From Candidatus Sumerlaea chitinivorans (GTDB lineage: Bacteria; Sumerlaeota; Sumerlaeia; Sumerlaeales; Sumerlaeaceae): a stretch of DNA of 64,000 nt. Location: assembly GCA_003290465.1 (NCBI GenBank), contig CP030759.1, positions 1,641,144 through 1,705,143 on the forward strand, given 5' to 3'. The notes under the pieces are model-generated. The model was not told where the DNA came from. It worked only from the letters and a program-made list of their open reading frames with translations, and searched no databases. Position numbers and translations under genes: made by a program. Positions 43,402 through 48,670 of the stretch are shown here, one piece after another. Each line of letters starts with the position of its first letter. Position 1 is the first letter of the stretch.

Positions 43402-45804
43402 ATGGCAGCGGTCGGGAAACCTCTGATTCGATTTGACGCGCGAGAGAAGGTGACTGGTGAGACGCGCTACGGTGGGGATCTGTATGAGAAGGGGATGCTG
43501 CATGTGAAGGTGCTGCGAAGCGAGTACGCACATGCCGAGATCCTGAGCGTGGATCCCTCGGCCGCGCTGGCTTTGCCGGGCGTGGTAGGTGTGTATACCG
43601 CACGGGACATCAGTGGCACGAATCGCCATGGGCTCATTCGTCGCGACCAGACAGTGCTTGCAGAGCAGTTTGTGCGCTACAAGGGCGACGCGATTGCAAT
43701 CGTCGTGGCTGAATCGGATAAGATCGCGCGTGAGGCACTGAAGCTGATCAAGGTGGAGTATCGCCCGCTCCCCGTCATCCATACCATTGATGAAGCGCTT
43801 GCCCCCGACGCTCCGAAGATCCACCCGGAGGGCAACGTGATGGGCGACAAGCGGATTCGCAAGGGGGATGCGGAACGCGCTTTCGCCGAAGAATGCGACG
43901 TAATTGTGGAGGAAACCTTCAGCACCCAAACTGTGGACCATGCTTTCTTGGATTTAGAAGCTGGCGCAGCCCTTTATGATGGCGAAATGCTCACCATCTG
44001 GGTGAGCGGCCAGTGGGTCCACGAAGAACGCCGTCTGGTAGCACTTGCGCTGGGACTTCCTGTGGAGCGCGTACGCATCATTCAGCCTGCCACTGGAGGC
44101 GCCTTTGGCGGCCGCGAGGATCTGTCCATTCAGTGCTATGTGGGTTTGGCAGCACTCAAACACCCGAACCGAAAAGTTTACCTTCGCTACTCGCGTGCAG
44201 AAAGCATGACGGCGCGACACAAACGTCATGCGATGCGGATCCACTACAAGTTGGGCGCAAAACGCGACGGCACGCTGGTGGCGGCAAAAGTTACCGTGTG
44301 GAGCGATGAGGGCGCGTACCATTCCACGGGCCTCGCGGTGATGCGTAAGGCGAGTTCCCACTCCACGGGTGTCTATCGCGTGCCGAACATCCACGTCGAT
44401 GTCTATGGGGTGTTCACGAACAACAACCCCACGGGTGCGATGCGGGGCTTCGGGGCTGCACAGATGGCCATTTGTTACGAGGGGATGCTGGACCGTCTTG
44501 CGGCAAAGCTCGGCATGGACCGCATCGAAATTCGCCGCAAAAACGTCCTACGGCACGGCGACGAGATCACGACGAGCCAAGTGTTGCCGGTAGTTACGGC
44601 TGAGGAATGCCTGGATGCGGCCCTCATGCAGTTTGCGCGAGGGGCGGGGGTCAATGTAGCAACGCCGCAAGAGGCTCAGCGCGTTTGGGACGCTCGCTCC
44701 TACGCAACTCCGGCACCCTACCTGCGGCGGGGCTACGGGGTAAGCATTGTGTGCTTTGGCTTGGGCTACGGCGACGCGTTTCCGGATGCGGCACGCGCCG
44801 AAGTCCGCTTCAATGACCAAAACGAGTTGGAGGTTTACACCGGGGCGGTGGAAGTGGGGCAAGGCCTCCTGATGATGGTAAAACAGGTCGCGGCGTCTGT
44901 TTTGGGAATCGACGTTGAGCGCGTGAAAGTCATTGCGGCGGATACTCATCGCACGCCAGAAGCAGGCTCCTCGAGCGCGACCCGCCAGACGTACTTCACC
45001 GGCAGCGCAGTGAAAATGGCATGCGAAGAACTGAAGGAGACCATTCTCGACATTGCCGAAACGCATTTTGGCGTCCATCCGTTCGAGATTCGAATCGAGG
45101 ACGGCATTCTCTATAACGTGAACGACAGGTCAAAGCAGATGCCTTTGGATGAAGTGCTGGCAGAGGCCCGCCGGCGCGGCGTGGGCCTGTCGGCGCGGGC
45201 TATTTTCAAGCCGCGCACGATTCGCGAATCCGAGGACACCGGCTTGAGCCCACGGCCATTTATCACCTACCTTTTCGGTTCGCACATTTCTCAGGTCTTG
45301 GTAGACACAGAGACTGGTGAGGTGAAGATCGAACGACACATCGCGGCACACGATGTCGGCAAAGCGATCAACCCACAGTTAGTTGAGGGGCAAATCCAAG
45401 GCGGTGTCGCGCAAGGCATCGGCATGGCCTTGATGGAAGAAGTGATCTACGGGGAGGACGGAAGGATCCTCAACGCTGGCTTCACGGACTATATTTTGCC
45501 AAGCATCCGCGACGTCCCAGAAATTGAAGCCGTAATCGTCGAACATGATGATCCCTCGGGACCTTTCGGAGCTCATGGCATTGGCGAGCCTCCGCTCATT
45601 GGAACCACGCCGGCCGTTTTGGCAGCTATTGCAGATGCGATCGGAGTACCTGTGAACCAGACACCCGCGACGCCTGAGCGTGTGTGGCGCCTTATTCAGC
45701 AAGCACGCGAACGTGGCGAGTGGCGCGAGGTTGATCCGAGGTGGCAGCCGGCTACAGAGTCAGGGGATAACGCCCCCACCTATCAGCCGCTTGCAACATC
45801 GTGA
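43402..45804 (+). CDS. xanthine dehydrogenase/aldehyde oxidase-family molybdopterin-binding subunit
   Basis: 800 residues of the large (Mo-binding) subunit. It starts KPLIRFDAREKVTGETRYGGD and contains GGAFGGREDLS, the AMRGFGAAQ loop that contacts the cofactor, GQG and QVAASVLGID, and the catalytic GAHGIGEPPL near residue 728 with the Glu that activates the hydroxylation. It oxidises purines, aldehydes or N-heterocycles; substrate unknown. FAD and 2Fe-2S subunits are not adjacent, so it must pair with distant genes or another electron acceptor. Its last 53 bases overlap the convergent UroD-family gene. Confidence 0.9.
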   Translation: MAAVGKPLIRFDAREKVTGETRYGGDLYEKGMLHVKVLRSEYAHAEILSVDPSAALALPGVVGVYTARDISGTNRHGLIRRDQTVLAEQFVRYKGDAIAIVVAESDKIAREALKLIKVEYRPLPVIHTIDEALAPDAPKIHPEGNVMGDKRIRKGDAERAFAEECDVIVEETFSTQTVDHAFLDLEAGAALYDGEMLTIWVSGQWVHEERRLVALALGLPVERVRIIQPATGGAFGGREDLSIQCYVGLAALKHPNRKVYLRYSRAESMTARHKRHAMRIHYKLGAKRDGTLVAAKVTVWSDEGAYHSTGLAVMRKASSHSTGVYRVPNIHVDVYGVFTNNNPTGAMRGFGAAQMAICYEGMLDRLAAKLGMDRIEIRRKNVLRHGDEITTSQVLPVVTAEECLDAALMQFARGAGVNVATPQEAQRVWDARSYATPAPYLRRGYGVSIVCFGLGYGDAFPDAARAEVRFNDQNELEVYTGAVEVGQGLLMMVKQVAASVLGIDVERVKVIAADTHRTPEAGSSSATRQTYFTGSAVKMACEELKETILDIAETHFGVHPFEIRIEDGILYNVNDRSKQMPLDEVLAEARRRGVGLSARAIFKPRTIRESEDTGLSPRPFITYLFGSHISQVLVDTETGEVKIERHIAAHDVGKAINPQLVEGQIQGGVAQGIGMALMEEVIYGEDGRILNAGFTDYILPSIRDVPEIEAVIVEHDDPSGPFGAHGIGEPPLIGTTPAVLAAIADAIGVPVNQTPATPERVWRLIQQARERGEWREVDPRWQPATESGDNAPTYQPLATS

Positions 45805-46822
45805 GATAGTTCTCCCACTTGCAATACTCAGGGAGAGAATTACTCGAGCCAATCGCATAACCGCCGCCCGGTGCGCCTTTGAGCAATGCAGTGCGCACAA
45901 GCCGCTCAACTTCCTCGGGAGTCCCGCGAGCGAGCGTATCCACTTCAATGTGACCCAGCAAAGCAAGGCGTCCGCCCACCCGCTGCTTGAGCTCGCTAAG
46001 ATCCATGGACTTGGGCTCGATGGGATGCAGGCCGTTCACTCCGAGCGCGATCAGATCGTCGAGCACTTCGTACAAAACTCCATCGCTATGATAGAGGAAG
46101 GGAATGGAGCGGCGGCGACAGAGCTCTCCAATCCGGGCCATCCACGGGAAAAGGTACTTGCGCAAGACGTCCGGTGAGACCATGAGCCCACCCGCGTATG
46201 CAATGTCGTCGGTGAACCAGAGCGCCTTCACACAGGGAAAGTCGGCCATGTTCTCAAATAGGTTATAGATGATGCTCCCAACTTTCTCGAAAAGGGCCTC
46301 CACGAGATCGGGTTCTTCAAAAAGGGCTTCCGCAAAACGCTCGAAGCCCATGAGTTCCCACACCAGCGTAAAGATGTCCCCATATTGGCCGATGACACCC
46401 ATATTCTCAGGAAGAAGGCGGCATGCTTCCTCAAAACGCGCGTAACTGACGTCTTCAGGGCGTGGCCAGACATAACGCTCGAATTCCTGCCATTTCGTGA
46501 TCACGCCTGTGTGCTCGTCGGCCCAACGTCGTTGGCCGGCGCCCTCCTCCAATTCGAAGACCTGAGGTCCCGACGCCGGCATAATCTTCGCCGGATTCAT
46601 ATCAATTGCCGGTTGAAGCTTAATGTAATCGTAGCCGGCTCGTTGGGCAAATTCGATCTCGTCCGCAACGGTGACACACGGACGTTCGATCATCAGGCCT
46701 TTGAATATCGGGTGAACACCCAACTCGATGAAGGGCACGCGATCGGGCTCACCTTCACACATGAGCACTTTGCGAAGGCGCTCAAAGTCCGGCTGACGAT
46801 CGAGATGAAATGGTTGTGCCAT
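45752..46822 (-). CDS. uroporphyrinogen decarboxylase (UroD/MtaA)-superfamily protein
   Basis: 356 residues, TIM-barrel fold of the UroD superfamily, which also contains corrinoid methyltransferases MtaA, MtbA and CmuA. The barrel end shows FLYHSDGVLYEVLDDLIALGVNGLHPIEP, the family's common motif before strand 8. The catalytic zinc ligands HxC of the methyltransferases are not present (YHSD), so activity is not implied. ATG 46822 is preceded by GAGGAG. It is divergent from the cobalamin riboswitch transcript, suggestive of a corrinoid link but not proof. True heme UroD activity is doubtful because the family is broad. Confidence 0.8.
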   Translation of the reverse strand: MAQPFHLDRQPDFERLRKVLMCEGEPDRVPFIELGVHPIFKGLMIERPCVTVADEIEFAQRAGYDYIKLQPAIDMNPAKIMPASGPQVFELEEGAGQRRWADEHTGVITKWQEFERYVWPRPEDVSYARFEEACRLLPENMGVIGQYGDIFTLVWELMGFERFAEALFEEPDLVEALFEKVGSIIYNLFENMADFPCVKALWFTDDIAYAGGLMVSPDVLRKYLFPWMARIGELCRRRSIPFLYHSDGVLYEVLDDLIALGVNGLHPIEPKSMDLSELKQRVGGRLALLGHIEVDTLARGTPEEVERLVRTALLKGAPGGGYAIGSSNSLPEYCKWENYLTMLQAADRWGRYPLTL

Positions 46823-47018: not shown

Positions 47019-47072
47019 TTCCCGGCTCGTACTCATGGAGAACTGCCAAACCGCATTTTTTGCGGCTTGGCG

Positions 47073-47246
47073 CCCACCTGCAGCCCTGCAGGTTGGGTGG
47101 GAAACCGGTGAAAATCCGGTACGGGCCCGCCGCTGTGAGCGGGGACGAAAGCCCACATGATGCCACTGGCGCGCGACACGGCATGAGCCGGAGCGCTGGG
47201 AAGGCGTGGGTGAGTAGGAAGATCCGCGAGTCAGAAGACCGGCTCC
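47073..47246 (+). ncRNA. cobalamin (B12) riboswitch
   Basis: Conserved blocks in order: GGGAAACCGGTGAAAATCC, CGGGCCCGCCGCTGTGA, GCCACTGG, GGGAAGGCG, and AGTCAGAAGACCGG (47227-47242). The spacing and the AGTCAGAAGACC end are diagnostic of AdoCbl/B12 aptamers. A hairpin with 11-bp mismatched stem and T5 loop (47045-47071) precedes it. The leader continues about 200 bases to the coding gene; it includes GGCTC..AGCCG and GCGAC/GTCGC hairpins, then GGAGAGGAGGTGATG. CTCC-containing segments could pair the strong GGAGG site, consistent with ligand-dependent sequestration. That mechanism is inferred. Confidence 0.95.
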
Positions 47247-47288
47247 ATGGGCAGCCGCGACTCCCTTCGGTCGCAAGGAGAGGAGGTG

Positions 47289-47522
47289 ATGAACGAGCAT
47301 GCCTATGGGCTTCGCCGAAGGCGCGAATCGGCGAAGCAGCGATTCGTGCGCACTTATGCGCTTTCAGCGCTCCCCTGGATCGCATCATTCAATCGCGCTC
47401 TTACCACGGGGCCTCGGTTGCAGGCCAACATCATTCAAGAAGGGAATTACGAAAATGAAGTTCTTACGCGCATCGCTGTTGGCTGCCATGCTGTGCACGG
47501 TGGCAGTTCATCCTGTCGTTAG
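47289..47522 (+). CDS. possible leader peptide ORF between riboswitch and secreted-protein gene
   Basis: ATG 47289 lies 2 bases after GGAGG, unusually close for an effective start, but the GGAGGTGATG arrangement is common. It encodes MNEHAYGLRRRRESAKQRFV and continues, basic, for 77 residues, past the secreted-protein start in another frame. A perfect 10-bp inverted repeat (47309-47318 with 47328-47337) lies in its first codons. Another ATG at 47299 is in frame with the secreted protein and would extend it by 52 residues. I cannot tell which of these is translated; it could be a non-coding leader only. Confidence 0.25.
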   Translation: MNEHAYGLRRRRESAKQRFVRTYALSALPWIASFNRALTTGPRLQANIIQEGNYENEVLTRIAVGCHAVHGGSSSCR

Positions 47523-48561
47523 TGCACAAATTCACATCCTGTCTGTTCCCGCGGGTTACACAACGGGTTCCATTGAGCTGGGCGTACCGTTTGCGGGAAG
47601 TCTTGCTCCCCTTCCCTCGGACCCCACAAAGCTTTACGTTTCCGTCGGTAGTTACGGCGCTCAAAGTATTGCGCTGGTTGATACCGTGGCCGCTACGGTT
47701 CAGCTTGTCGCCAGCGGCTTCGGTTCGATTGGTGGTATCGCCGTCCTCAGCAATGGGGATCTTGCCATCACCGAAAATGCAACATCGGAGACCATCCTTC
47801 GGGCGCACGATTTGACGAATGACGGCGACTTTCTTGATCCCGGAGAAATTACGGAACTCATTTCTCCAATTTTGGCCGATAGCCCCTTTGGATTCACTGG
47901 GGCGCAAATTGCATTAGCACCCGCAGGCAATGCCGCTGCTATTCCTGCGGGAGCTTTGGTGATCCAGACTGCAGACGGCGAAACCAGCTCAGAGCTGCTG
48001 GTGGTCGAGAATCCAGAAACATCTCCCGCCTTCCGGCCGGCTGGGGGCGCCTTCTTTAGCGGATTCCAATACAACGGCGGAATTGATTTTTCGAACAGTG
48101 GGCACGTGATCATGGGCGAAGGCATGTTCGACATGCTCACCTTCACGTCGTCGGGACGCATTTACGCGTTGGTGAACACGAATGCGGATGCCGTCATTGG
48201 CGCTGGGGAGTGGAACGTCTTGGTGTCGGAAACTCAACTCACCGCCGGCCTGAGTGACTTGGCCATTTCAAAAGAAGATGACGTTTTCACAGTGGAAGGC
48301 AGTGGAACAGTGCGTACGTTTGCGCTTCCCCCAAATCTCTTGAGTGGCTCGGCAACACCGGCGGTATTTGCGCAAACGGATAGCCCCTACCTTTCAACAG
48401 TTCGGTTTGACGACAAGACGAAGACCTTCGCGCCCGGCGCGACAGCGCCTTCTGCGCGACTGTATTTGGGAGGCTACGCAAGCGACTGGACCGCGGCAAC
48501 GAACCTCGTGTGGATTCAGCCACAGCCTGCATCACACGTTGAGAATTGGGCTATTTACTAA
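47455..48561 (+). CDS. secreted beta-propeller-like protein under cobalamin riboswitch control
   Basis: 368 residues from ATG 47455, preceded by AAGGGAA. Signal peptide RASLLAAMLCTVAVHPVVSA/Q directs export; C14 is not in a lipobox, so it is probably soluble or periplasmic. The rest has repeated short beta-strand units such as GSIGGIAVLSNGDLAITEN and TSSGRIYALVNTN, reminiscent of NHL/SMP-30 propellers, and an EF-hand-like DLTNDGDFLDPGE. I do not recognise a family with confidence. Its leader is a B12 riboswitch, so it is probably made when cobalamin is scarce. By analogy to BtuG, a riboswitch-controlled surface propeller of Bacteroides, it may bind corrinoids; this is hypothesis. Confidence 0.65.
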   Translation: MKFLRASLLAAMLCTVAVHPVVSAQIHILSVPAGYTTGSIELGVPFAGSLAPLPSDPTKLYVSVGSYGAQSIALVDTVAATVQLVASGFGSIGGIAVLSNGDLAITENATSETILRAHDLTNDGDFLDPGEITELISPILADSPFGFTGAQIALAPAGNAAAIPAGALVIQTADGETSSELLVVENPETSPAFRPAGGAFFSGFQYNGGIDFSNSGHVIMGEGMFDMLTFTSSGRIYALVNTNADAVIGAGEWNVLVSETQLTAGLSDLAISKEDDVFTVEGSGTVRTFALPPNLLSGSATPAVFAQTDSPYLSTVRFDDKTKTFAPGATAPSARLYLGGYASDWTAATNLVWIQPQPASHVENWAIY

Positions 48562-48584: not shown

Positions 48585-48621
48585 CCCCCGGGGATGAGCT
48601 GACCCGGGGGTAATTTTTTTT
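48585..48621 (+). terminator. strong intrinsic terminator after the secreted-protein gene
   Basis: 8-bp stem CCCCCGGG / CCCGGGGG with a 10-base loop, then TAA and eight T. Confidence 0.88.
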
Positions 48622-48670
48622 GCATTTTTTTGTTGCATTGCAATTAATTCCTGGGGCTTTTTACGTCTCA

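Follow-up and report, generated by a model that had tools for sequence, protein, structure and literature searches.

BtuG of Bacteroides, the closest described counterpart of the protein analysed here, is a surface propeller lipoprotein of the YNCE/DUF5074 type (PMC6143338, PMC10404256). The known model does not account for the passage of B12 through the outer membrane of diderms that lack BtuB and TonB. In the open-access literature we found no earlier report of a cobalamin riboswitch in Sumerlaeota, or of one associated with a pilin or pseudopilin, and the Sumerlaeota genome paper (PMC8092238) mentions neither B12 nor TonB nor pili. In this study we analysed a window of 64,000 nucleotides from the single-contig genome of Candidatus Sumerlaea chitinivorans (family Sumerlaeaceae, phylum Sumerlaeota). 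We consider it likely that the riboswitch-controlled product found in this window, RSP1, is a BtuG-like secreted corrinoid-capture protein, which belongs to a B12-uptake regulon of the TonB-poor Sumerlaeota in which a pseudopilus probably helps the crossing.

The window contains a cobalamin riboswitch aptamer (47053..47261, + strand), which matches the RF00174 model of Rfam over its full length (1-189 of 189) with 96.9 bits (E=6e-23), the gathering score being 31.5 bits. A leader of about 190 nt separates the aptamer from the RSP1 gene (47455..48561, +), which encodes a secreted protein of 368 aa whose mature part corresponds to about 47527-48558. The original prediction had described a B12 aptamer preceding a protein with a signal peptide and no lipobox that is none of the usual regulon members, and our analysis corroborates it on each of these points: the N-terminus (MKFLRASLLAAMLCTVAVHPVVSA followed by Q) looks like a type I signal peptide, inspection of the cleavage site revealed no lipobox Cys, and no Pfam family scores above cut-off in RSP1. 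Directly 3' of the aptamer lies the probable expression platform (47262..47288, +), a hairpin assigned by sequence comparison with relatives, in which CUCCCUU can pair with AAGGAG, beside a strong Shine-Dalgarno sequence (AGGAGGTG). Comparable hairpins, some of them followed by terminators, are present 3' of the aptamer in the relatives, which suggests ordinary control of the OFF type. The RSP1 gene is followed by a G+C-rich probable intrinsic terminator (48585..48622, +) with a CCCCCGGG/CCCGGGGG stem, a 10-nt loop and a T-run (-22.8 kcal/mol, z=-2.8); it is missing from our pattern-scan list because the loop limit of the scan was 8. Given this hairpin and T-run, RSP1 is apparently monocistronic in the window.

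The original prediction had also called for a search for homologues downstream of cobalamin riboswitches, and this provided support for the pairing. RSP1 homologues were identified in 16 of 61 genomes, all inside Sumerlaeota (a search with the single RSP1 protein led to the Sumerlaeota contigs QZM1.54 and SSF23). Of the other 15 genomes, 12 have RF00174 directly upstream of RSP1, and the genes of the remaining three are cut by a contig end; the linkage is thus 12/12 wherever upstream DNA exists, besides the pair in the window itself. Three further RSP1 genes (G013, G031, G035) were found by way of their riboswitches and therefore do not constitute independent evidence of linkage.

We then read all 55 cobalamin riboswitches of 37 Sumerlaeota genomes together with their downstream genes. 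This revealed that 50 of the 55 loci contain members of a common cassette, composed of secreted proteins of several families, a pseudopilin and/or BtuF-BtuD-BtuC. RSP1 is encoded at 16 of the 55 loci, RSP2 at 12, BNR-like proteins at 19, PQQ-like proteins at 8 and the pseudopilin at 29, while BtuF is found at 9, BtuD at 9 and BtuC at 5; the BtuF, BtuD and BtuC assignments were checked with Pfam. Smaller secreted-protein families also belong to the set. With the linkage in relatives and the cassette members at 50/55 loci, chance placement of the riboswitch before RSP1 was rejected. In several genomes the module is compact: single operons of the order riboswitch-PQQ-BNR-pseudopilin-BtuF-BtuD-BtuC occur at L082 and L066 (partial ones at L077 and L064), L059 is a single riboswitch-RSP2-pseudopilin-BtuF-BtuD-BtuC operon, and RSP1, RSP2 and the pseudopilin are adjacent in six loci (L065, L067, L085, L094, L103, L104). 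In the genome analysed here the module is split over three loci. A second riboswitch (L049:5613-7354; G000:C1:1488612-1490353) heads RSP2, encoded at L049:5902-6708, and a dedicated pseudopilin, and BtuF-BtuD-BtuC, without a riboswitch, are located at about G000:C1:1757100-1760000 (L132). The separation of RSP1 from both of these loci, and the lack of a riboswitch before its BtuFDC genes, count against the model proposed here.

The solitary position of RSP1 in the window would also suit an ordinary extracellular protein that is more in demand when B12 is scarce, for instance a B12-independent substitute or an adhesin, and that plays no part in uptake. Cobalamin riboswitches do govern B12-independent isozymes as well, and the one at L092 precedes a gene which reads as MetE. 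Another, at L075, precedes a gene which reads as an anaerobic ribonucleotide reductase; both are as expected for cobalamin regulons. We nevertheless regard this explanation as very unlikely, considering that BtuFDC are co-operonic in relatives, that the partner protein RSP2 is BtuH-like, and that the hosts appear to be obligate scavengers without BtuB.

This last feature emerged from a gene-content survey of 40 Sumerlaeota genomes. A B12-binding domain is present in 40/40, which identifies these bacteria as B12 users, and CbiC in 0/40, so that corrin-ring synthesis is probably missing; for the latter reason cobalt uptake was set aside as a riboswitch target. A FecCD (BtuC-family) permease was found in 39/40 genomes, and the distribution of Omp85 (38/40) and secretins (40/40) indicates that Sumerlaeota are diderms. 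The TonB plug occurs in just four of the 40 genomes and the TonB barrel scores over cut-off in three, and neither is found in the single-contig genome of the window. Most Sumerlaeota, apparently obligate B12 scavengers, must therefore have a different way of taking B12 through the outer membrane. The step concerned is the one served by BtuB-TonB transport, with the same riboswitch control and the same BtuFCD downstream, but most of these genomes have no TonB plug or barrel. Sumerlaeota retain the riboswitch, putative capture proteins and an importer in the inner membrane, and a pseudopilin stands where the outer-membrane transporter would.

RSP1 had originally been described as propeller-like, and this part of the claim is supported at the level of sequence alone. 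The RSP1 family profile matched mostly NHL propellers in the PDB, weakly (E 0.0016-0.6), and hhalign comparison of the putative blades gave weak similarity, the best being between blades 4 and 5 (probability 52%). No NHL repeat exceeded the Pfam cut-off (12 bits against 20 for the protein of the window; best E among 13 RSP1 members 0.005, in one member and under cut-off), and AlphaFold prediction from three sequences gave no usable model (pLDDT 34). RSP1 is a probable propeller of the NHL type. Propellers of this type include enzymes, and some of the remaining secreted families at the riboswitches resemble PQQ or BNR proteins, which would be in line with RSP1 being secreted to process corrinoids enzymatically, perhaps by releasing bound cobamides or remodelling them. 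We find this unlikely: no catalytic signature was found in RSP1, its BtuH-like partner comes from a family of binding domains, and the variation of the protein families in a constant context better suits interchangeable binders.

As a putative capture protein, RSP1 resembles BtuG in several respects. It is secreted, probably a propeller, controlled by a cobalamin riboswitch and found in obligate scavengers, and its family is linked to a BtuH-type partner protein, to BtuFCD and to riboswitch-controlled loci for B12 transport. Unlike BtuG, it lacks a lipobox and a BtuB partner, its signature is of the NHL and not the YNCE type, its C-terminal tail is different, and Pfam and PDB profile searches gave no sequence match to BtuG, DUF5074 or the YNCE propeller. 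The suggested analogy to BtuG holds for riboswitch linkage, BtuF/BtuD/BtuC cassettes and the BtuH-like partner, but not for sequence. A riboswitch-controlled surface scavenging protein outside Bacteroides, analogous to BtuG, fits these observations well.

The partner RSP2 (about 269 aa) shows a connection with a binding family. Its profile (27 members) produced just two PDB matches below E=1, both marginal: residues 391-498 of 8BLW, the BtuG1 chain of BtuB1G1 (E 0.0072), and 7BIZ, BtuH2 (E 0.62). The former region is the B12-binding H domain of BtuG1 (PMC10404256), and BtuH2 also binds B12 (PMC8941943). Both matches begin near the start of the H domain and fall within one family, and we infer, with due regard to the marginal E-values, that RSP2 may be distantly related to the B12-binding domain of the BtuH type. 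All 14 RSP2 members tested also matched NF033170, the LIC_13355 family of Leptospira lipoproteins (best 4e-17), with scores below the family cut-off where one is given. DUF4465 (BtuJ; PMC13398666) was considered as the identity of RSP2 and rejected, there being no Pfam match.

Outside Sumerlaeota, RSP2 homologues were found in 33 of the searched genomes. We read 20 of these loci, and 17 contain a cobalamin riboswitch and several a TonB receptor, which ties RSP2 to riboswitch-controlled B12 transport. In TonB-bearing phyla the homologues are encoded in riboswitch-BtuB operons and are at times fused to BtuG-type propellers, as in BtuG1; L188, where a YNCE/DUF5074 propeller is joined to an RSP2 domain and a T9SS tail, reproduces the BtuG1 architecture. 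At L182 one gene run comprises a riboswitch, a TonB receptor and RSP2 together with a protein distantly similar to RSP1 (39.7 bits). RSP2 of Sumerlaeota differs from the BtuH domain proteins in that it has no lipobox, carries a WxxYE tail and is encoded with a pseudopilin instead of BtuB. BtuH-like domains were seen in many phyla (L184, L188, L191, L192, L195, L196 and others), often at riboswitch loci with TonB receptors, a spread which exceeds the reported Bacteroidetes distribution.

Another feature uniting the secreted proteins is a short C-terminal tail with the consensus WxxY(E)-COOH, shared by several unrelated riboswitch-linked families; RSP1 ends in ENWAIY (tail codons 48544..48558, +). 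A tail of the form W-x-x-[aromatic or large hydrophobic]-(0-2 residues) is present in 56 of 59 riboswitch-linked secreted proteins. In a sample of about 0.45 Mb of the source genome, which was used for both tail and pseudopilin-paralogue frequencies, the strict W..[YF] end occurs in only 3 of 337 ORFs, two of them riboswitch-linked and all three with a signal-peptide-like N-terminus. Homologues elsewhere carry PEP-CTERM (L183) or T9SS (L188) tails in the same place, and the WxxY(E) tail is therefore probably a surface-sorting signal, and probably a general, undescribed tag of Sumerlaeota. Some secreted proteins encoded away from riboswitch loci also have it (L133:11324-13339, L074:10705-12774).

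The pseudopilin is found at 29 riboswitch loci in 29 Sumerlaeota genomes. It has a prepilin N-terminus and a GspG/ComGC-like start, like the pseudopilins of the competence pseudopilus and of type II secretion, but forms a distinct subfamily tied to cobalamin riboswitches (its own profile gives it 324 bits, whereas the highest-scoring paralogue within the 0.45-Mb sample reaches 86). Among the 20 loci read outside Sumerlaeota a pseudopilin occurs in that of G244 alone, which is also the only one of these genomes without a TonB plug; the loci of the 19 TonB-bearing genomes have none. There (L183:3270-10764) two adjoining cobalamin riboswitches head RSP2-propeller-pseudopilin and BtuF-BtuC-BtuD, and both RSP2 and the propeller end in PEP-CTERM. 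As G244 is a single case, the tie between pseudopilin and the lack of TonB is suggestive.

The source genome encodes a GspD/GspI/GspK-type set and a separate PilM/PilN/PilQ-type set, either of which could host the dedicated pseudopilin. The two sets are also in keeping with the main rival to a pseudopilus step, in which the RSPs capture corrinoid, the pseudopilin is a cargo-specific part of type II secretion, and corrinoid enters through a putative TonB-independent channel. Pseudopilins are standard secretion parts, and this one might serve protein export alone. In favour of the rival, the WxxY tail is not confined to riboswitch loci; that same generality also speaks against it, since export of tailed proteins would not require a B12-specific pseudopilin. 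The occurrence of the pseudopilin as the sole cassette member at riboswitches L053, L056 and L093, and its presence in one TonB-less relative but in none of 19 TonB-bearing ones, likewise argue against a role restricted to export, which we view as possible rather than probable. With similar caution we propose that Sumerlaeota, along with one or more further lineages devoid of TonB, use a pseudopilus instead of a TonB-dependent channel. Secreted propeller and BtuH-domain proteins would bind B12 at the surface, and a B12-specific pseudopilin, working within the machinery of type II secretion or of a type IV pilus, would deliver it to periplasmic BtuF.

In the model of RSP1 as a capture protein that we prefer, low intracellular cobalamin would permit RSP1 expression through the riboswitch, the signal peptide would export the protein, and the WxxY(E) tail would probably set it on the cell surface. 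RSP1 and the BtuH-domain-like RSP2, the latter expressed from the second riboswitch locus with the dedicated pseudopilin, would capture corrinoid there. A pseudopilus containing the dedicated subunit, in place of the BtuB/TonB channel, would probably help to move the corrinoid, or whatever carries it, through the outer membrane, from where it would be passed to BtuF and then to BtuCD. The pseudopilus step is both the least certain and the most novel part of this scheme. Were uptake to depend on the pseudopilin, this would be a new kind of small-molecule import; in the other case, BtuH-type capture proteins are still extended to many phyla and an undescribed surface-protein tail is indicated. 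The original prediction did not cover its more novel extensions: the lack of BtuB and TonB, a pseudopilin dedicated to the system, the C-terminal tail common to the secreted proteins, and the other riboswitch locus of this genome.

Two further observations concern the immediate surroundings of RSP1. Within 47281-47522 of the window, the strong Shine-Dalgarno sequence adjoining the aptamer faces an ATG at 47289, and the ORF starting there overlaps the beginning of the RSP1 gene in a different frame; a leader peptide or translational coupling is possible. The divergent gene upstream (45755-46822, - strand) encodes a protein of the URO-D family, which includes components of corrinoid-dependent methyltransferases, and this arrangement is also kept in the relative L130.
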